44,798 bases of DNA, from assembly GCA_017444525.1 (NCBI GenBank), contig JAFSWL010000025.1, positions 1-44,798 on the forward strand. Direction: 5' to 3'. Positions 4,600 through 12,759 of this stretch are shown piece by piece. Origin of the DNA: Alphaproteobacteria bacterium (lineage in GTDB: Bacteria; Pseudomonadota; Alphaproteobacteria; RF32; CAG-239). Under the pieces are notes generated by a model. The model saw only the letters and a program-made list of their open reading frames with translations. It was not told the DNA's origin and made no database searches. Numbering within the stretch: position 1 is the first letter of the stretch; every line of letters starts with the position of its first letter. The position numbers and the translations under genes were made by a program.

Positions 4600-5184
4600 T
4601 TACATAAATCCTTCAATTTGCCACTTTCCGCCGCAATAAGACAAGCATAAGATACTTCCGTTAGAAACATCGGTACCGCTTTGACCAAGGGCAATAAGCA
4701 GTTGTGTCAACATAATTCCGTGAGAAGAAACTGCTATAATAGAATACGGTGAGTTTTCGGCATATTGCTGCAATCCTTCAAATACGCGTTGTCGAACTTC
4801 TTTTTTACTTTCTCCGCCGATAAAACGCAAATTTTCGTATTTTGTATCACAACTGCGCCACTGCTGATATTTTTCGCCGAATTTATTCATTATCTCTGTA
4901 TAGTGCATGCCTTCGATTTCGCCGACATTAACTTCAATAAAATGAGCATCCTCGACAATAGGGCAGTGTAAAGATATGTTAGCCAACTCGGCAGTTTGTT
5001 TAGCTCGTGCCAATGGCGAGCAAAGAATAATCTCAATATCTTTATCTTTAAGTTTTGTGCCGATTTCTAAAGCTTGTTGTTTTCCCAAATCAGTCAGCAC
5101 CGAATCATTGGTTTGTCCTTGAGTTCTGCCGGCCAAATTATAAGTACTCTGTCCATGACGAAATATATAAAAATATTTTTTCAT
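4600..5184 (-). CDS. Histidine phosphatase superfamily protein (phosphoglycerate-mutase-like)
   Basis: A branch-1 histidine phosphatase, which hydrolyses phosphate esters through a phospho-His intermediate. The signature FRHGQSTYN places the nucleophile at H10, with R9, R60 (SPLARAKQTA) and the second histidine H155 (SSHGIM) completing the phosphate pocket, so the 194-residue enzyme looks active. There is no signal peptide, so it is cytoplasmic. The family covers mutases, cobalamin-pathway and sugar-phosphate phosphatases and cannot be narrowed by motif alone. Its start overlaps the stop of the zeta-like kinase gene by four bases, so the two are translationally coupled. I infer that it may reverse or process the kinase product. 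It is the last gene of the glycan operon. Confidence 0.85.
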   Translation of the reverse strand: MKKYFYIFRHGQSTYNLAGRTQGQTNDSVLTDLGKQQALEIGTKLKDKDIEIILCSPLARAKQTAELANISLHCPIVEDAHFIEVNVGEIEGMHYTEIMNKFGEKYQQWRSCDTKYENLRFIGGESKKEVRQRVFEGLQQYAENSPYSIIAVSSHGIMLTQLLIALGQSGTDVSNGSILCLSYCGGKWQIEGFM

Positions 5185-6092
5185 TTTTCCAATATTCCGG
5201 ATCTGAATAAAATAGAATTTTTGAAATCAGATGACAGTAACAGTCCTGATTTTCTCATAAATTTAGTAAATAATTCTTCAACGGTTTTCAGTTCTTTAGT
5301 CGGAGCTTTACGCTCTTTCATCATAGATATAACATCTATCCACTTTAATGCCACATTAGTCATATCTTCACGATTTAGCGCACTGTTACGAGCTTCACGC
5401 AATTTGCGCTGAACCAACAACGGATCTTTATCTTGAATACTGCTATCGTAAAAATTGCAGTATCTGCGATTATAAATGCTTATACGATCTACTGTATTAT
5501 GACGGCTCATATTAGCTAAGATATCCGGAAGTAAATAATAAGAATCATCATGCACTCCGAGAGTAGCCGGAAAACCGATTTCACGTGTAATAGCCAACTG
5601 TTCTTCTTGTCTGAAGAAAATCGAAACTTCACTGATATTGCGATGCACACCTAAAGCCACACATTCGATATTATATCCGTGTTCACGAGCCTGTAACAAA
5701 GTTTTCATTTTATAGTCATCAGGATCCAATAAAATGCTTTCTATCACAATATTATAACCTTTATCAAAACAATAATCCATCAGTTTTGTGCGTGCCATTC
5801 CTGCATCTTTCTTAGTTTTAAAGGTGTAATTGGCTCGGTCATTTCTGATAATATCATCTGCCATTGGGTGCAACTGTCTGATATCATCTGTACCAAATAA
5901 TACAGGATATTCTTCAAAATTATCTTGAGCATAACGACGAGATGAATAGCTTTTACCTGCTCCTGATTGCCCTGTAATCAAGACAAAAGTCGGATTATCT
6001 GAGGAAGTGCAATCTCGAGTAAAGGTCGGGATAATTAACTCATCCACCCATTTTTGATGTTCTTGCGGCGATAATATCGGCTCAAATTCCAT
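5181..6092 (-). CDS. Zeta-toxin-like P-loop kinase
   Basis: A P-loop phosphotransferase of the zeta toxin / PezT type. Characterised members phosphorylate UDP-N-acetylglucosamine and so block wall synthesis. Walker A is GQSGAGKS (41-48). It is followed by GTDDIRQLHP (67-76), which matches the zeta segment with the catalytic Asp, then GYNIVIES (the beta-strand before the lid), a basic FFRQEEQ helix, and ISIYNRRYCNFYDS, matching the conserved zeta 'LYNR' strand. The product has 303 residues, close to zeta (about 290). The C-terminal 60 residues are helical and unassigned. It starts one base after the stop of a 74-residue gene and overlaps the phosphatase gene by four bases. The position after a small helical protein resembles epsilon/zeta toxin-antitoxin order, but the glycan-operon setting also fits a sugar-nucleotide kinase. 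Its substrate is not shown by sequence. Confidence 0.75.
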   Translation of the reverse strand: MEFEPILSPQEHQKWVDELIIPTFTRDCTSSDNPTFVLITGQSGAGKSYSSRRYAQDNFEEYPVLFGTDDIRQLHPMADDIIRNDRANYTFKTKKDAGMARTKLMDYCFDKGYNIVIESILLDPDDYKMKTLLQAREHGYNIECVALGVHRNISEVSIFFRQEEQLAITREIGFPATLGVHDDSYYLLPDILANMSRHNTVDRISIYNRRYCNFYDSSIQDKDPLLVQRKLREARNSALNREDMTNVALKWIDVISMMKERKAPTKELKTVEELFTKFMRKSGLLLSSDFKNSILFRSGILEK

Positions 6093-6317
6093 CTATTCCT
6101 CTTTTTCCAACTGTTGCAGATAAGGCACATAAACATTTTTTATCTTTTCGAGGATAATCGATTTATCGATAAATTTCAAGTCTTTTTGCAATTGCTTAAT
6201 TTTTTTATTATAATCAGACCTGTCATTATCATCACATTTTTCCGATAAAGCATACAGTTTTCTTATCAATGTCAGAACAACATATTTTGCCTGTTCAATA
6301 TCTTCGAAAGTATTCAT
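6093..6317 (-). CDS. Small helical protein, possible partner or antitoxin of the zeta-like kinase
   Basis: The 74-residue product is unrecognised. It is charged and almost entirely helix-forming, with no Cys-based motif, signal peptide or membrane segment. Its start codon overlaps the stop of the 802-residue gene upstream by one base (TAATG), and the zeta-like kinase begins directly after its own stop, so all three are translated in a chain. Size, helical character and position just before the kinase match what is known of epsilon antitoxins, which are three-helix proteins that block the ATP site. I see no sequence motif that proves homology, so the antitoxin role is an inference from context. 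Confidence 0.55.
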   Translation of the reverse strand: MNTFEDIEQAKYVVLTLIRKLYALSEKCDDNDRSDYNKKIKQLQKDLKFIDKSIILEKIKNVYVPYLQQLEKEE

Positions 6318-8725
6318 TATATTCTCTCTGAGTCGATAAGTAATCTTATTTTTTTTACTACCGGTTTAAGTTCCAAATATTTATCACGATACTTTTTCTT
6401 TTTATCCCCGAAAGTAATTAACGCCATAAACTTACAGAAATAATATTTATGCAAAATTTCATACCGCAAAGCAAGTAATATATTTGTTTTTTTCAATTCT
6501 GCATTTTGTTCGGTAATCTTATTTATTTTTTGTTCATTTTCCCAATTTTTCAGACGTAATTCTTTGATTTGCGTATCCAAATAAATTTCTTCATCCGTAA
6601 ATTTTTCCGCTGCATTATTATTTGCCAAGGCATTTTTCAACCAATTGATGGCAAAATCGGCTTTTTCTTTAACAATACGATTGGTTTGAGTAAAATCAAA
6701 CGGTTGCAATAAAGCATCATTATTATAAACATCTGAAGGATTTGCCACAATTCTTTCTTTAAGTTTCAATAAATCAAACAGTTTATATCTCAATCCGCCG
6801 CGAGCAAGATTTATAAACGAAATAAACGGCTTATTGAATTTCGTGGCAAAACAGGTTCCGTGATAAGAATCAGTAATCACAAAGGAAGCATTTTTATAAT
6901 ACCATAAAAATTTCTCCGGAGTAACATCCTTTTGATAAACAATTCCCGCAACCGTTCTCTGATGTTTTTCTTCCGGATTATTTATATTAATTACCTCTAA
7001 TCCGAGTTTGCGCGCAACATAATCAATAGCTTTATATTTTTCTGCATTTGCATCCAAAATATAAGTTACTAAAAACGGTTTATCTGTCAACTTATCCACA
7101 TTGGCTGTAAGTTTGATATATTCCGAAACATCAAGCATAAGTGTAGGGTCAATAAGTTCCTGAGCGTTTAAGTTAAAAATTTGTTCAATATTCGAACCGT
7201 CTTCACGCAAAGAAATATGATTAAACCGTCTAAATGAATATTTTCTTTTTTGGGTTACGAACTCATCATCACGAAATGCGTCATCGCCAAACGATGTTGC
7301 AAAAGAAATCTTATTTTTAATATTTTTAACAAAATCCAAAAAAGCCGGTTCTTGATGCAATGAAGGCTTAAACAGCTGATCCGAGCCAACTATAAATGCT
7401 TTGCAATGCTGGTTTAAATGTACCAAATCATCTATATTATTATAAATGCGTGAAATAGTGTAGTGCTTGCGGGCAAAATTCATCGGAATCGTATTTTCAA
7501 GCGGATATCCCGGCCAGATATAGCTCAGCTTTTGCAACATCAATACTTTCTGTTTCAATTGTGTAAGAATATTGTGCACGGCATACGCTACCATGATGGC
7601 ACCAAAATTTTTAGCAAAGAATGTTGTTATCAAACAAACATCGTATTTATCTTTTGTTGATATTTCCGCGGCCTGACGAAAACCGTCTTTGCGATACAAC
7701 ATAAAGAAAGAATTCCTCGCTGGATTAAGTTTAGTACCTATTCGTATATGTCCATTATTATAATTTTCCTTCATTTGAATTGAACGAGCATCGGGGGCAA
7801 CCTCGGCAACAACGGCTTTTCCTTTAGCCGTATTTGCCAACACCAAGGACAATCCTTTGCCATCGTTAAGCCCCGGCACATGTTCGCTTATTCCCCACCA
7901 GTCTCCGAGTGTGATATCTGCAGGTCTTGGCAATAATGAATATTTGCAATTTTCGCAAGATTTTCGCAGAATAGTGGAATTATGAAATAATTTTGTATAA
8001 CTATCGGAAACAATTTTATTACCGTTAGCCATTGTAAAAGTACAACTGGAACAAGACCACCCGATTTTTGACTTATCGCGAAAATTAACGTTTTTAATTT
8101 GTGAACGATCAAAACATTCATCAAGATATTTTTGCCATACACCGCGGCTTGGAGCTCCGTGGCACAAAATATCTACCGTCAGCAAATTATCATATTTCTT
8201 ACCTAAAAAAGTATTTAAGCCGGCAACCTGACAAGGGGTTCCGCTGAATAGAACTTCTTTTCCGCCTTTAAGCAGTTTTTCGATTTCAGAATAGCATTTT
8301 TCCGTATCGCTTTGTACATATTTAGAACCGCGCAGTTTATCCAAATCATCTGCATTATCTATGATAATATGATGAACATTCCATTTTTCATCAAAAGCAG
8401 CACCGCACACCACACCGCTTTTATTTAAAATATGCTCTGCCAATAATGTAAACATTCCGCCCGAAGAACTTTTTTCGCGGATTTCATCGCTCGCCATAAC
8501 TGCATAACATTCGGGATTTTTTGTATTATCAAACTCGGAATTCAATACCGGACACACATTCAAACATTGCCCACAATTGATACACGTATCTTCATCGATA
8601 ACCGGATAAAGAAAACCTTCGTCATTTTCCTTCATGGTTATGGCTTTAACTCCGCATTTGTTAGCGCAAGCACCGCAACCGCAGCAATCTTCTGTCGAAA
8701 CTTTTAAGTTTACATTATTTTTCAT
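6317..8725 (-). CDS. Fusion of ferredoxin, FrhB-like and polysaccharide pyruvyl transferase domains
   Basis: An 802-residue multidomain protein. Residues 14-24 and 48-58 form two CxxCxxCxxxC clusters, a bacterial two-[4Fe-4S] ferredoxin. About 70-345 resembles the coenzyme F420 hydrogenase/dehydrogenase beta-subunit family (motifs SSSGGMFTLLAEH, FSGTPCQVAGL, CHGAPSRGVW, and a later Cys-rich SCENCKYSLL). About 360-690 resembles polysaccharide pyruvyl transferase (TTFFAKNFGAIMVAYAV at its start, FIVGSDQLFKP, and ITDSYHGTCFATKF with its His). The tail from about 700 is a predicted coiled coil. The two activities often sit in adjacent genes of capsule and exopolysaccharide clusters; here they are one chain. 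It likely adds pyruvate or a related redox-dependent modification to a glycan. It is 20 bases from the GlfT2-like gene and overlaps the next gene by one base. Confidence 0.85.
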   Translation of the reverse strand: MKNNVNLKVSTEDCCGCGACANKCGVKAITMKENDEGFLYPVIDEDTCINCGQCLNVCPVLNSEFDNTKNPECYAVMASDEIREKSSSGGMFTLLAEHILNKSGVVCGAAFDEKWNVHHIIIDNADDLDKLRGSKYVQSDTEKCYSEIEKLLKGGKEVLFSGTPCQVAGLNTFLGKKYDNLLTVDILCHGAPSRGVWQKYLDECFDRSQIKNVNFRDKSKIGWSCSSCTFTMANGNKIVSDSYTKLFHNSTILRKSCENCKYSLLPRPADITLGDWWGISEHVPGLNDGKGLSLVLANTAKGKAVVAEVAPDARSIQMKENYNNGHIRIGTKLNPARNSFFMLYRKDGFRQAAEISTKDKYDVCLITTFFAKNFGAIMVAYAVHNILTQLKQKVLMLQKLSYIWPGYPLENTIPMNFARKHYTISRIYNNIDDLVHLNQHCKAFIVGSDQLFKPSLHQEPAFLDFVKNIKNKISFATSFGDDAFRDDEFVTQKRKYSFRRFNHISLREDGSNIEQIFNLNAQELIDPTLMLDVSEYIKLTANVDKLTDKPFLVTYILDANAEKYKAIDYVARKLGLEVININNPEEKHQRTVAGIVYQKDVTPEKFLWYYKNASFVITDSYHGTCFATKFNKPFISFINLARGGLRYKLFDLLKLKERIVANPSDVYNNDALLQPFDFTQTNRIVKEKADFAINWLKNALANNNAAEKFTDEEIYLDTQIKELRLKNWENEQKINKITEQNAELKKTNILLALRYEILHKYYFCKFMALITFGDKKKKYRDKYLELKPVVKKIRLLIDSERI

Positions 8726-8745: not shown

Positions 8746-10548
8746 CTATTTATCCAAGCCTAAATATTCGCGCCAAAATTTTTCGGTGGTTAATTCAGTA
8801 TAAGCAGTTTTTGCATTTTTCTCCAATTCTTCATAGCGATTGTATATTTCATCGAGCAATGCTTTACCTTTTTGGCGATAATACAGCGACTTTTTCTTAT
8901 CCAGTTTACGCACTTCGTATTTGCCGGTTAAGATGTTATAGACTTTTACTTCTTTAATCATAATAAAGTCCGGAACCGGCGGATACCACTCAATGGCAGT
9001 TCCTTCTTTTTCATAAAAACAATCCGGACAATGCAAACCGCGGGTAGTTATACGATATAAAAACTTGCGCCATCCGGCAACTTTATGGCGCGGCTTAATA
9101 CTTACTTCTTCTAATTTGTCTTTATCATAACATTCCAGATATTGAACCTGTTTTTGCACGGAATTAAGCGACTTAAACTTTTCTTCCGGATTTTCTTTTA
9201 GTACATCCGGTCCTTTTAAGATATCTTCCAATGCCATAATATATAATTCAGCAGAAACGTAGTCATACATGGAAACTACGCTGTTAATGCAATCCCAGAA
9301 CCATTTTCGGAATTGGCGCTTAAAATTATCTGTGTGTAATAAACGAGTATAAAAAATGTTACGAATAGTAAAATATCTGTCGACCACTTTTGAAACTCGC
9401 CATAAAAACGGCGCGTGCCAAACGTTAACACCATTGAGCCAGATAAATATTTTGTCGTTGTTGCGCCAGCTCCATTCTAAATCGTCCCCTCGGATAAAGA
9501 ACGGCAACGGCAAGCCTTTTTCTTTTATGGTATCCACGGTAAACGAACAATACCACCAACCGGCGCTTTTCATCCCTAAACTTCCTTCTTGAACGTGCTG
9601 AGGAATATTTAACACTTTCAGAACGTTTGTATAATCAAATAATGTTTGCGGATGGTGATATCCGGAAACCCAAAATCCGGATTCGATCCCGAGATTTTCA
9701 AAATACATATCTTTGCTGTATAAATCAACCATCGCTCCATTGATAAATGAATCTTTATATTCTTCTTTCAAGTAGTTTGACATCAGCAGAACGCGGTAAA
9801 ATGATTCCGGAAAAATTTCCACATCATCGTCCATTAACAACACGCGGTCAAATGTTTCTTTATCGTGCAGAGCCTCAATAATGCCGCGGGTAAATCCGCC
9901 GGCACCTCCGGCATTGATATTGGGATAAATATTGACGTTATCTGAATTTAAGCTTTCCGGCAAAGTTTTACCGTTGTCGGAAAGAATGTATTTCATTTTA
10001 TTTTTTAATGACGGATTTTCTTTTAAGAAGTTCTCAAATAAGGCTATATTGCGAGTAACGCATTCTTCACGCTTAAAAGTGCAGGTAATAACCGCCAGTT
10101 TATTGTCGCGTTGTGCTTCTTTATCTGTGCACCATGCACCGCCGTGAATTTTTATGGGATTTGCTTTGTCTTCATAAATTTTGAACGCAATACCGTCATA
10201 AGCCGATGGATTAGGAATTTCAATAACGCTTTTGCCGTTGCAATCTTGTTCAACCAATGTTGTATCAATTCTGTTAAACACGTTGTTCAGTTCGCTTCCG
10301 AATACCACAACTTTATAGGAACCGTCAATATCAAGAGATAAATATAATTTACCTAAATCACAATATGTGTGGTAAATTTTGGCGGAAAAAGCATTCATCC
10401 ACGTATCAAATCCATAGATGTTAACGTTGGTAAGAACATCGCCGAACATACACGTTTTTTCCTTACGGCGTGTGAAAAGTTCTTCATATAGCGGTAAGAA
10501 TGCTCCGTTTGGCATAATTACGCGTGATAGCTCATATAATTTACTCAT
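8746..10548 (-). CDS. GlfT2-like galactofuranosyltransferase
   Basis: A GT2-family polymerising transferase that, by family, uses UDP-galactofuranose. The 600-residue layout follows mycobacterial GlfT2: an N-terminal beta-rich domain (about 1-145), a GT-A domain starting at LAVITCTFKR (151-160), the hallmark NINAGGAGGFTRG (210-222), the metal-binding DDD (240-242, in LLMDDDVEIFP), a WWYCSF segment, a GDDLEWSWR acid cluster, VNVWHAPF with the likely base region, and a helical C-terminal domain. No membrane segment is seen, so it acts at the cytoplasmic face on a lipid-linked acceptor. It overlaps the upstream GT2 gene by eight bases. UDP-galactopyranose mutase two genes upstream would supply the donor. 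Outside actinobacteria the exact linkage cannot be predicted. Confidence 0.85.
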   Translation of the reverse strand: MSKLYELSRVIMPNGAFLPLYEELFTRRKEKTCMFGDVLTNVNIYGFDTWMNAFSAKIYHTYCDLGKLYLSLDIDGSYKVVVFGSELNNVFNRIDTTLVEQDCNGKSVIEIPNPSAYDGIAFKIYEDKANPIKIHGGAWCTDKEAQRDNKLAVITCTFKREECVTRNIALFENFLKENPSLKNKMKYILSDNGKTLPESLNSDNVNIYPNINAGGAGGFTRGIIEALHDKETFDRVLLMDDDVEIFPESFYRVLLMSNYLKEEYKDSFINGAMVDLYSKDMYFENLGIESGFWVSGYHHPQTLFDYTNVLKVLNIPQHVQEGSLGMKSAGWWYCSFTVDTIKEKGLPLPFFIRGDDLEWSWRNNDKIFIWLNGVNVWHAPFLWRVSKVVDRYFTIRNIFYTRLLHTDNFKRQFRKWFWDCINSVVSMYDYVSAELYIMALEDILKGPDVLKENPEEKFKSLNSVQKQVQYLECYDKDKLEEVSIKPRHKVAGWRKFLYRITTRGLHCPDCFYEKEGTAIEWYPPVPDFIMIKEVKVYNILTGKYEVRKLDKKKSLYYRQKGKALLDEIYNRYEELEKNAKTAYTELTTEKFWREYLGLDK

Positions 10549-11647
10549 ATCTAAAGGTCCTTTTTTTGTTTTTTTTCTTTAATGTTAATCCCAAAAACGT
10601 TACAACAATATGGCGGCGGGAAGGGGTTTCCTTAATTGAAAACAGCCAATCTCGCATTTTTTTTAAGATTATAACTGTATAATAATTTCTTTTGCGCATA
10701 TCCTTAAATATTTGCTTTTCTTCCTTGCCGAACAAACAGGAATTTTCAACCACGGAAGGAAGCATAGTTTGAAATTTTTTATGAATTTTTTCAAGACAAT
10801 ATTTGCGGTATTTTTTATCCACCCGCCCCAAATTCCAAAACATATGGCGAAAAATTTCGATATACAAATACTCCTTAATTTTCTCATACTCGACAGGATG
10901 AGCATTAAAAAACACCTCCAATGCGTCATAAATTTCGAAAATATCATCCGGATTATTCTTTTTATGCGAAGAGGCGTTTTCGTTAAATATGCGATAGTTA
11001 TAGAAAGGTTTTTCCTCCCAATAAATACTCTTGGCCTGCATCAAAGTTTCAAATCGCCAGTTTTGATCGGCATAACGTCCTTTATTTTGCTCCAATACTT
11101 TAATATTATATTCACGGATAAAATCAGTACGATATATGGCCGACCAAATGCTGGCATGACGTTGCAATGGCATCGGGTATTCGTATATATTAAACGGATT
11201 GTGCGGCGGTTTGATTTCCTGCATAAAAAATGCCGGCTGTCGCTTATAAGTGCCGTCTGGCTTATCCAATACTTCATAATAAGTACCTTTGACAATATCG
11301 ACGTTATATTTTTCGGCATCTTTATACAAAGTTTCGTACATATCAGGTTCAATCCAATCGTCCGGCTCGACAATGCCGATATATTTTCCTTCAGCTTTTT
11401 CTAGACCGTGATTAACTGCTTTGCCGTAGCCGCCGTTTTCCTGATGTATGGCAACAATACGCTTGTCTTGTGCCGCGTAGGCGTCAACCATTTGCGGGCA
11501 ATTATCTTTAGAACCGTCGTCAACCAAAATAATTTCAATTTCTTTCAGAGTTTGTGTCAAAATGCTGTCAACGCACTGCTTGAGGTATTTTTCAACCCCG
11601 TAAATCGGAACAATTATTGAAACTTTCGGTTTTTTGCGGAAAAACAT
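10541..11647 (-). CDS. GT2-family glycosyltransferase
   Basis: A 368-residue GT-A fold transferase. KVSIIVPIYGVEKYL (8-22) opens the nucleotide-binding half, LVDDGS (41-46) holds the first acidic pair, and EPDDWIEPDMYE (94-105) is the DxD-like metal site with the motif typical of EpsJ/WcaA-like enzymes of surface polysaccharide clusters. The C-terminal third is basic and helical and may contact membrane. It lies eight bases after the mutase gene and overlaps the GlfT2-like gene by eight bases. Together with the paralogue at 12756-13766 it probably builds the primer or side residues of the glycan. Sugar specificity cannot be read from sequence. Confidence 0.88.
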   Translation of the reverse strand: MFFRKKPKVSIIVPIYGVEKYLKQCVDSILTQTLKEIEIILVDDGSKDNCPQMVDAYAAQDKRIVAIHQENGGYGKAVNHGLEKAEGKYIGIVEPDDWIEPDMYETLYKDAEKYNVDIVKGTYYEVLDKPDGTYKRQPAFFMQEIKPPHNPFNIYEYPMPLQRHASIWSAIYRTDFIREYNIKVLEQNKGRYADQNWRFETLMQAKSIYWEEKPFYNYRIFNENASSHKKNNPDDIFEIYDALEVFFNAHPVEYEKIKEYLYIEIFRHMFWNLGRVDKKYRKYCLEKIHKKFQTMLPSVVENSCLFGKEEKQIFKDMRKRNYYTVIILKKMRDWLFSIKETPSRRHIVVTFLGLTLKKKNKKRTFRYE

Positions 11648-11655
11648 AACTTTGG

Positions 11656-12759
11656 CTATCCTTTGATTTGTTCAAACAGCTCCAGTGCACGGGCAATTGC
11701 TTTATCCATATCATAATATTTGTAATCACCCAAACGGCCGAGAAAATAAGTGTTGTTCAATTTTTGAGCTTCTTCGGCGTAACGGGCATACAACGCAGCA
11801 TTTTGTTCATTCGGAATTGGATAATAACGCTCATTTTTGCCGCGTTCAAAAGCTTCGGAATATTCTTTGGCAATTACTGTTTTTTCGCACAAGTCATTTA
11901 AATAGTGTTTATATTCGTGAATACGCGTAAAATCGTAGTTGCACGGATAGTTAACCACCGAATTGCATTGATAATACGGCATATCCAATTCCTCAAGCTT
12001 AAAATTAACGCTGCGATACGGCAATTCGCCGAATTTATAATCAAAAAATTCATCAATCGGTCCGGTATAAAACAAACGGTCATAGTCTTCTTTATAATCG
12101 CTGAATTTTGTGTTTAAACGTACCTCAATATTCGGGTGATCAAGCATATTTTCCACGGTTTTACCATAGCCGGCAAAAGGAATACCTTGATATTTATCTT
12201 GAAAATATCTGTCATCACATGAGATATAAACCGGAACTCGCGCGGTTACGGCGCCATCAACTTCATTAGGCGATACGCCCCATTGTTTTGTGGTGTAATG
12301 TAAAAATATTTTTTCATAAACGTATTGTGCCAAAAATTTCAAATCGGCATCATCTTGTTTTTGAAATTCCAAAATCGGCACTTTTTTATTGTATTCAAAA
12401 TGTTGCAAAAGCTTTTCTTCCATACGCTGAGCCATACTTTCCGGAAATACATTATACAGCGTACGTAAATTAAACGGAATGGTAGTTTCAATGCCGTCAA
12501 TTACTGCCACCACTCGGTGCATATAAGTGTTAAAACTGGCAAAGCGGCTGATAAACGCCCAGACACTGTCTAAATTGGTATGAAAAATATGGGAGCCGTA
12601 TTTATGAATCATGATACCGTTGTGGTCCCGATAATCGTAGGCATTTCCGGCAATATGGCTTTTGGTATCGATTACTGTTACCTTTTGGTTTAATTCTTCC
12701 GCAATTTTGCGGGCAATGGTTGCACCGGAAAAGCCGGCGCCGACGACTAAGTTTTTCAT
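11656..12759 (-). CDS. glf: UDP-galactopyranose mutase
   Basis: Flavoenzyme that interconverts UDP-galactopyranose and UDP-galactofuranose, supplying the Galf donor. The FAD-binding GAGFSGATIA is at 7-16, followed by the acidic strand end VIDTKSHIAGNAYDYRD typical of the family. KQWGVSPNEVDGAVTARVPV and FAGYGKTVENML form the substrate pocket, and YTGPIDEFFDYKFGELPYRS is a strong family signature. The 367-residue length is standard. Its ATG overlaps the stop of the upstream GT2 gene (ATGA), and the next GT2 follows after eight bases. Pairing with a GlfT2-like enzyme four kilobases or less downstream strongly supports synthesis of a galactofuranose-containing glycan. Confidence 0.96.
   Translation of the reverse strand: MKNLVVGAGFSGATIARKIAEELNQKVTVIDTKSHIAGNAYDYRDHNGIMIHKYGSHIFHTNLDSVWAFISRFASFNTYMHRVVAVIDGIETTIPFNLRTLYNVFPESMAQRMEEKLLQHFEYNKKVPILEFQKQDDADLKFLAQYVYEKIFLHYTTKQWGVSPNEVDGAVTARVPVYISCDDRYFQDKYQGIPFAGYGKTVENMLDHPNIEVRLNTKFSDYKEDYDRLFYTGPIDEFFDYKFGELPYRSVNFKLEELDMPYYQCNSVVNYPCNYDFTRIHEYKHYLNDLCEKTVIAKEYSEAFERGKNERYYPIPNEQNAALYARYAEEAQKLNNTYFLGRLGDYKYYDMDKAIARALELFEQIKG

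Follow-up and report, generated by a model that had tools for sequence, protein, structure and literature searches.

The window analysed here, 44,798 nucleotides in length, is one of the 50 contigs of a 1.58-Mb alphaproteobacterial genome (contig JAFSWL010000025.1). On its minus strand lies a triad of genes encoding a small helical protein (p74), a zeta-fold kinase and a histidine phosphatase (HP), each present as an open reading frame at the coordinates given here. The first gene (6093-6317) encodes p74, a 74-residue three-helix protein and probable antitoxin or kinase partner; the second (5181-6092) encodes a 303-residue P-loop kinase of the zeta/PezT fold, probably a toxin with an altered substrate site; and the third (4600-5184) encodes HP, a branch 1 histidine phosphatase of 194 residues and the putative eraser of the kinase product. 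The ATG of the kinase follows immediately upon the p74 stop codon, and the kinase stop and HP start overlap within an ATGA at 5181..5184 on the minus strand. No NCBIfam model rises above its cut-off for any of the three proteins, the anti-phage defence models of PADLOC return no family for them at E 0.01, and their PHROGs matches are confined to weak or unnamed families.

Pfam places the kinase in the Zeta_toxin family (PF06414; E 8.7e-29, 100.8 bits against a cut-off of 22.3), the best NCBIfam model is PezT, far below cut-off, and in the predicted structure the zeta/PezT fold extends along the full length of the protein. As an earlier note on this DNA had proposed, the Walker A motif (GQSGAGKS) and the catalytic aspartate (D69, equivalent to zeta D67) are both intact, and p74 holds the position of an antitoxin, directly upstream of and abutting the kinase, which it adjoins in all 23 close relatives described below. 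Measured against the zeta catalytic set of K46, D67, E116 and R158, the counterparts K47, D69 and R161 occur in 22/22 triad kinases (these counts omit the G087 kinase, which spans two contigs), position 118 is Glu in 13 and Asp in 9, and T131 is kept throughout. The same 22 sequences uniformly carry Phe in place of zeta R171 and Ile in place of zeta T118 and are missing the Arg at zeta R120, such that the EGTxR substrate segment is not kept. Among 15 other zeta-like sequences, in an alignment that displays 9 of the 22 triad rows, R171 is retained in 13 and an E/D-G/T-T-x-R motif is found in 9. In zeta itself, R171 is the second phosphate-binding arginine and is reported to be essential for toxicity and ATPase activity (PMC6356619). 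Because R171 and the T118 contact are lost in every triad kinase compared, UDP-N-acetylglucosamine (UDP-GlcNAc) appears, on sequence grounds, a doubtful substrate. Substrates vary among zeta-fold kinases, as exemplified by ng_zeta1 and AvrRxo1. A PFK-2-like enzyme was also considered, and was rejected on the fold ranking and because Pfam gives no 6PF2K row at E 1.

The carriers of the triad are a family of uncultured, small-genome proteobacteria. Searching 153 genomes of this family with a kinase profile (A1) yielded matches in 37, of which 23 are close (E values no higher than 1.6e-68; the window included) and the other 14 weak; within the genus, 4 of the 27 genomes searched hold a kinase relative. 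The earlier note had named beforehand, as a test that could refute it, whether the three genes are conserved together: p74 and HP directly adjoin the kinase as a set in 23/23 close genomes, with the order permuted in relatives, and no close kinase without p74 or HP was found among the 153. Because the same three genes adjoin in every one of these genomes, the neighbourhood is more than chance. Five have the order p74-kinase-HP (G000, G024, G026, G135 and G136), and 18 have HP-p74-kinase (16 members of genus g32, together with G153 and G015), contig ends cutting the triad in G087 and G015. The surroundings differ: in g32 the triad follows an alpha/beta-hydrolase gene, with one small gene between in G098 and G105; in G135 and G136 the preceding genes encode YidC and a GTPase of the ribosome-binding type, an additional gene intervening in G135; the G026 triad comes after a gltX-sdaA stretch; and that of G153 shares its locus with genes for a sodium/hydrogen exchanger and an ImpB-type polymerase, these names coming from the stretches that were scanned. 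At the level of genera, the tree of HP is concordant with that of the kinase. Beyond the family, a class sample of 385 genomes included 6 that matched at E 1e-10, of which two belong to the family, and a phylum sample of 398 included 3 that matched at E 1e-15, one being the window; neither sample contained a close kinase outside the family. The kinase locus RUG13901 is not independent of G024. A mobile origin was rejected: tblastn searches of plasmid and phage sequences (9 records in one, 806 in the other, 20 of the latter listed) produced nothing that reached 60% identity, the matches listed falling below 30% and representing remote zeta genes only, and three scans of viral contigs gave no confirmed kinase relative.

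The AlphaFold2 model of p74 (predicted local distance difference test score, 91.4) has helices at residues 3-27, 30-48 and 53-73, a predicted three-helix bundle. No Pfam family exceeds its cut-off for p74, and the best sequence match among solved structures has an E value of 0.073. Compared with small proteins encoded upstream of other zeta kinases, the p74 profile scores 26.1, 25.7 and 24.6 with sets of four, six and seven of them, weak scores that are above those of controls; the G202 partner bears no similarity to p74. Within the 137 of 153 family genomes searched for it, p74 occurs without the kinase in four, each time at the g32 locus: together with HP in G092, G093 and G101, and in G114 with no HP. 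Using 22 kinases as tblastn queries, no kinase remnant was detected at these four loci at E 0.05. HP is found without p74 or kinase at the g32 locus of G085, G096, G100 and G106; it also stands without them in G102, next to the end of a contig, and in G080, a member of another genus. This pattern of persistence and loss looks like that of an antitoxin, because p74 can outlive the kinase and the kinase never outlives p74. The mean share of conserved columns, 43% for p74, 55% for the kinase and 70% for HP (over slightly different row sets), fits the same pattern. That p74 is the partner of the kinase is, in our judgement, quite likely.

HP is a member of PF00300 (His_Phos_1; E 2.1e-40 in Pfam), for which the best NCBIfam model is alpha-ribazole phosphatase, far below cut-off, and the closest solved relatives by sequence are the phosphatase 1ebb/1h2e, PspA and CobC. 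Residues R9, H10, R60, E84 and H155, which we take to be the catalytic set of the histidine phosphatase superfamily, are invariant in 23/23 triad HPs. The G015 copy is truncated where its contig ends; it enters the tree as 166 residues and was left out of set A6 (22 rows). Tree and synteny distinguish two old HP loci, A and B. Locus A, a neighbourhood of exchanger, ImpB and flavin-reductase genes, occurs in g38, g35, g39, g2 and some g32 paralogues, and the p74-kinase pair adjoins B-type HPs in g1, g34 and g32. In G153 (stretch L055, 6080-7879) the pair sits between the locus-A HP and the flavin-reductase gene; in other g38 genomes these two genes directly adjoin, making G152 and G154 a natural empty-site comparison. 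HP is probably a working partner of p74 and the kinase, because the pair adjoins HP paralogues at two loci that are unrelated. A further hint comes from H94, which in the main HP clade is present in 22/22 HPs with a kinase versus 2/12 without, the strongest association among 194 columns, and columns 95 and 96 are among the next three. Mean path lengths in this clade are 1.52 for nine HP-only members, 1.55 for three HP-p74 members and 1.06 for 22 triad members, with overlapping ranges, and are not relied upon. Whether HP acts on the product of the kinase we hold to be an evenly balanced proposition, and the role of HP is the least secure step of a three-part reading. As a separate observation, four genomes have a gene for a protein of 111-113 residues as the immediate neighbour of HP (L042 5531-5869, L043 7799-8140, L113 5386-5721 and L118 6151-6486), and the L042 copy matches a MazG nucleotide pyrophosphohydrolase domain (E 8.2e-9).

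We propose, with confidence that goes no higher than even, that the triad is a three-part zeta-type toxin-antitoxin module with an altered substrate, in which the phosphatase reverses the product. The gene set, its co-conservation, the residue changes and the loss pattern are the observations on which this proposal is built, along with the predicted folds of the kinase and p74. Using ATP, the kinase would phosphorylate an essential small metabolite (a nucleotide or a nucleotide-sugar is probable), and growth would stop; its substrate pocket would be unlike that of the UDP-GlcNAc 3'-kinases. In the manner of the three-helix antitoxins epsilon and PezA, p74 would bind the kinase and hold it off, and HP would strip the phosphate that the kinase had added, such that leaky or transient kinase activity becomes reversible. 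Toxicity, binding by p74, the substrate and the action of HP on the kinase product are what we infer from these data. More tentatively, the module might be a writer/eraser pair at the level of a metabolite, where a kinase with a new substrate poisons, p74 blocks and HP erases, amounting to a reversible growth brake, not a one-way toxin.

Several observations weigh against the proposed module. Co-conservation in g32 reflects mostly vertical inheritance at one locus, some branches of the HP and kinase gene trees are weakly supported, no terminator-like site was found near the triad, and promoter-like sites there number 26 against 19.1 expected (standard deviation 3.9), no clear excess. For p74, the epsilon antitoxin model PF08998 gives no row at E 1, the same model firing on the G221 partner, and the fold matches in the Protein Data Bank are weak, none below E 0.001; an epsilon chain is not among the fold matches listed, which we count as no evidence against. 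The four partners in the main p74 profile test were picked after the sequences had been inspected, and taken singly only two of nine partners exceed controls (that of a Xanthomonas plasmid at 19.1 and that of G057 at 17.8); neither the true epsilon partner of G221 (10.0) nor six rhizobial partners together (6.6) score above them. The replacement of R171 by Phe might mean that the kinase is altered beyond known chemistry, or inactive. As for HP, 28 of the 54 in the tree have no p74 or kinase adjoining, the HP-only rows being a sample (30 HP regions taken from a longer match list). Because so many stand apart, HP has, or had, another job and is not a dedicated gene family. Outside the main clade 18 of 19 kinase-less HPs keep H94, as do 20 of 31 kinase-less HPs overall, and the H94 association comprises 3-4 starred independent pairs, giving a sign-test p not below 0.125. 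Finally, the approximately unbiased test gives a borderline p of 0.058 against uniting the G153 HP with the main clade, too weak for a firm rejection; the synteny of this HP is clear.

The foremost alternative to the module is that p74 and the kinase form a two-part toxin-antitoxin system and that HP is an unrelated housekeeping phosphatase linked to them by hitchhiking. HP-type genes are widespread, occurring at E 1e-20 or better in 130 of the 153 family genomes, paralogues included, and often without the p74-kinase pair. Furthermore, blastp found no HP near distant zeta-like genes, either at three class-level loci or around the 10 weak family matches (out of 14) whose neighbourhoods were read, and none is annotated in 12 plasmid or phage zeta regions, for which gene tables may be incomplete. 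Hitchhiking sits poorly, however, with a linkage that holds in 23/23 despite permuted order and at several places (g32; G153; g34; G026 and the window; G015), and with a pair that adjoins two different HP paralogues. We consider it somewhat unlikely. A second, improbable alternative is a reversible metabolic or signalling cycle, in which kinase and HP make and remove a regulatory phosphometabolite and p74 serves as a regulatory subunit, by analogy with PFK-2/FBPase-2 and fructose-2,6-bisphosphate.

A third alternative, that the triad performs a biosynthetic step for the adjacent polysaccharide cluster by phosphorylating UDP-GlcNAc, UDP-galactose (UDP-Gal) or UDP-galactofuranose (UDP-Galf), is very improbable and largely contradicted by distribution. 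In its favour are several features of the neighbourhood. An 802-codon gene on the minus strand (6317-8725), in which the iron-sulfur part of an F420-hydrogenase beta subunit (FrhB/FdhB) is fused to a polysaccharide pyruvyl transferase domain (Pfam), is the last of its cluster and meets p74 in a TAATG stop/start overlap (6315..6319, minus strand), sharing one nucleotide with the p74 ATG. Further genes on the same strand (8746-12759; Pfam/NCBIfam) encode a GlfT2-like galactofuranosyltransferase (weak, below cut-off), a GT2 protein and UDP-galactopyranose mutase (Glf). The G024 triad likewise lies near Glf and a glycosyltransferase, and a gene for a NAD-dependent epimerase-type protein stands a few genes off in at least 7 of 16 g32 stretches (recognized by N-terminus; L047 scanned). 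Yet genes on both strands separate that epimerase gene from the triad, and in the remaining 21 genomes the triad has no homologue of the Glf or glycosyltransferases of the window next to it, as far as the stretches read extend (the contigs of G015, G087 and G089 being short). In the window, a pilin-like gene and the GT2-Glf-GT2-GlfT2-FrhB cluster separate gltX, an EF-hand gene, sdaA and g14686 from the triad; in G026 these same four genes lead straight into p74-kinase-HP with no cluster between. Because Glf adjoins the triad in only two of 23 genomes, the window and G024, and G026 has the same neighbourhood without the cluster, the galactofuranose cluster is a bystander. UDP-Gal and UDP-Galf were rejected as lead substrates on these same two grounds, and the survival of p74 beyond the kinase in four genomes further weakens a biosynthetic role. 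Thus, of the ideas in the earlier note, neither the three nucleotide-sugar substrates, given the Ile at T118 and Phe at R171 in 22/22, nor the biosynthetic step has fared well. It is just as improbable that the kinase is a decayed zeta homologue without activity, retained as a p74-binding scaffold: the loss of R171 and T118 would suit this, but K47, D69, T131 and R161, with Glu or Asp at 118, persist in 22/22, and none of 23 copies has an internal stop (that of G087 is split by a contig end).

The triad bears on two questions: whether cells can enzymatically reverse zeta-type poisoning, and what zeta-fold kinases outside epsilon/zeta and PezA/PezT phosphorylate. With its three small proteins, both become directly testable, and the proposed module, if real, would give toxin-antitoxin biology an eraser dedicated to the product of the toxin. 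The view that no system of this composition had been described fits the literature searched, where no paper was found to treat zeta toxin together with histidine phosphatase, with phosphoglycerate mutase or with both UNAG and dephosphorylation, most subscription papers lying outside that search.

Among known systems, the triad differs from epsilon/zeta and PezA/PezT (zeta 1gvn/3q8x, PezT 2p5t) in the R171-to-Phe and T118-to-Ile changes of its kinase in 22/22, in having p74 as one 74-residue bundle without a PF08998 match, and in the histidine phosphatase that adjoins in 23/23. The plasmid-borne zeta pairs of Xanthomonas and rhizobia (e.g. L134 and L133) resemble the triad in that a protein of 89-95 residues is encoded directly upstream of the kinase, the Xanthomonas protein bearing weak profile similarity to p74 and the rhizobial ones none; unlike the triad, they have no phosphatase annotated alongside, and the L133 and L134 kinases keep R171 and an E-T/G-T-M-R motif. 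Two further zeta arrangements were seen in passing. In genus g38, a distant zeta-like kinase overlaps a gene of 222-223 codons by one base (L064 3466-5045, L065 3389-4971), the L064 copy of which matches Gln_deamidase_2 (PF18626; E 3.8e-7), possibly a different two-gene unit; and L092 (4490-6658) and L093 (4185-6471) hold zeta genes in tandem, preceded by a small gene that in L092 encodes a PF08998 epsilon antitoxin. AvrRxo1-Arc1, a zeta-fold 3'-NAD kinase with a small partner, is much farther from the triad kinase than zeta/PezT; AvrRxo1 is secreted as an effector and, unlike in the triad, has its partner encoded downstream, and we know of no phosphatase for this system. PFK-2/FBPase-2 likewise pairs a P-loop kinase with a histidine phosphatase, but as a 6PF2K domain fused to the phosphatase, where the triad has separate genes and no 6PF2K row. 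The nearest precedent for a phosphatase as eraser is the tripartite kinase-kinase-phosphatase system KKP, where the phosphatase is reported to be the antitoxin and to reverse phosphorylation by two protein kinases (PMC11341870). KKP differs in its Ser/Thr protein kinases, protein substrates and prophage carriage, the triad having a zeta-fold kinase, a histidine phosphatase and a third, p74-like protein. Set beside these systems, the triad is real and its co-conservation strong, and its sequences suggest a variation on the zeta toxin-antitoxin theme, with a proposed chemistry, rather than a separate kind.
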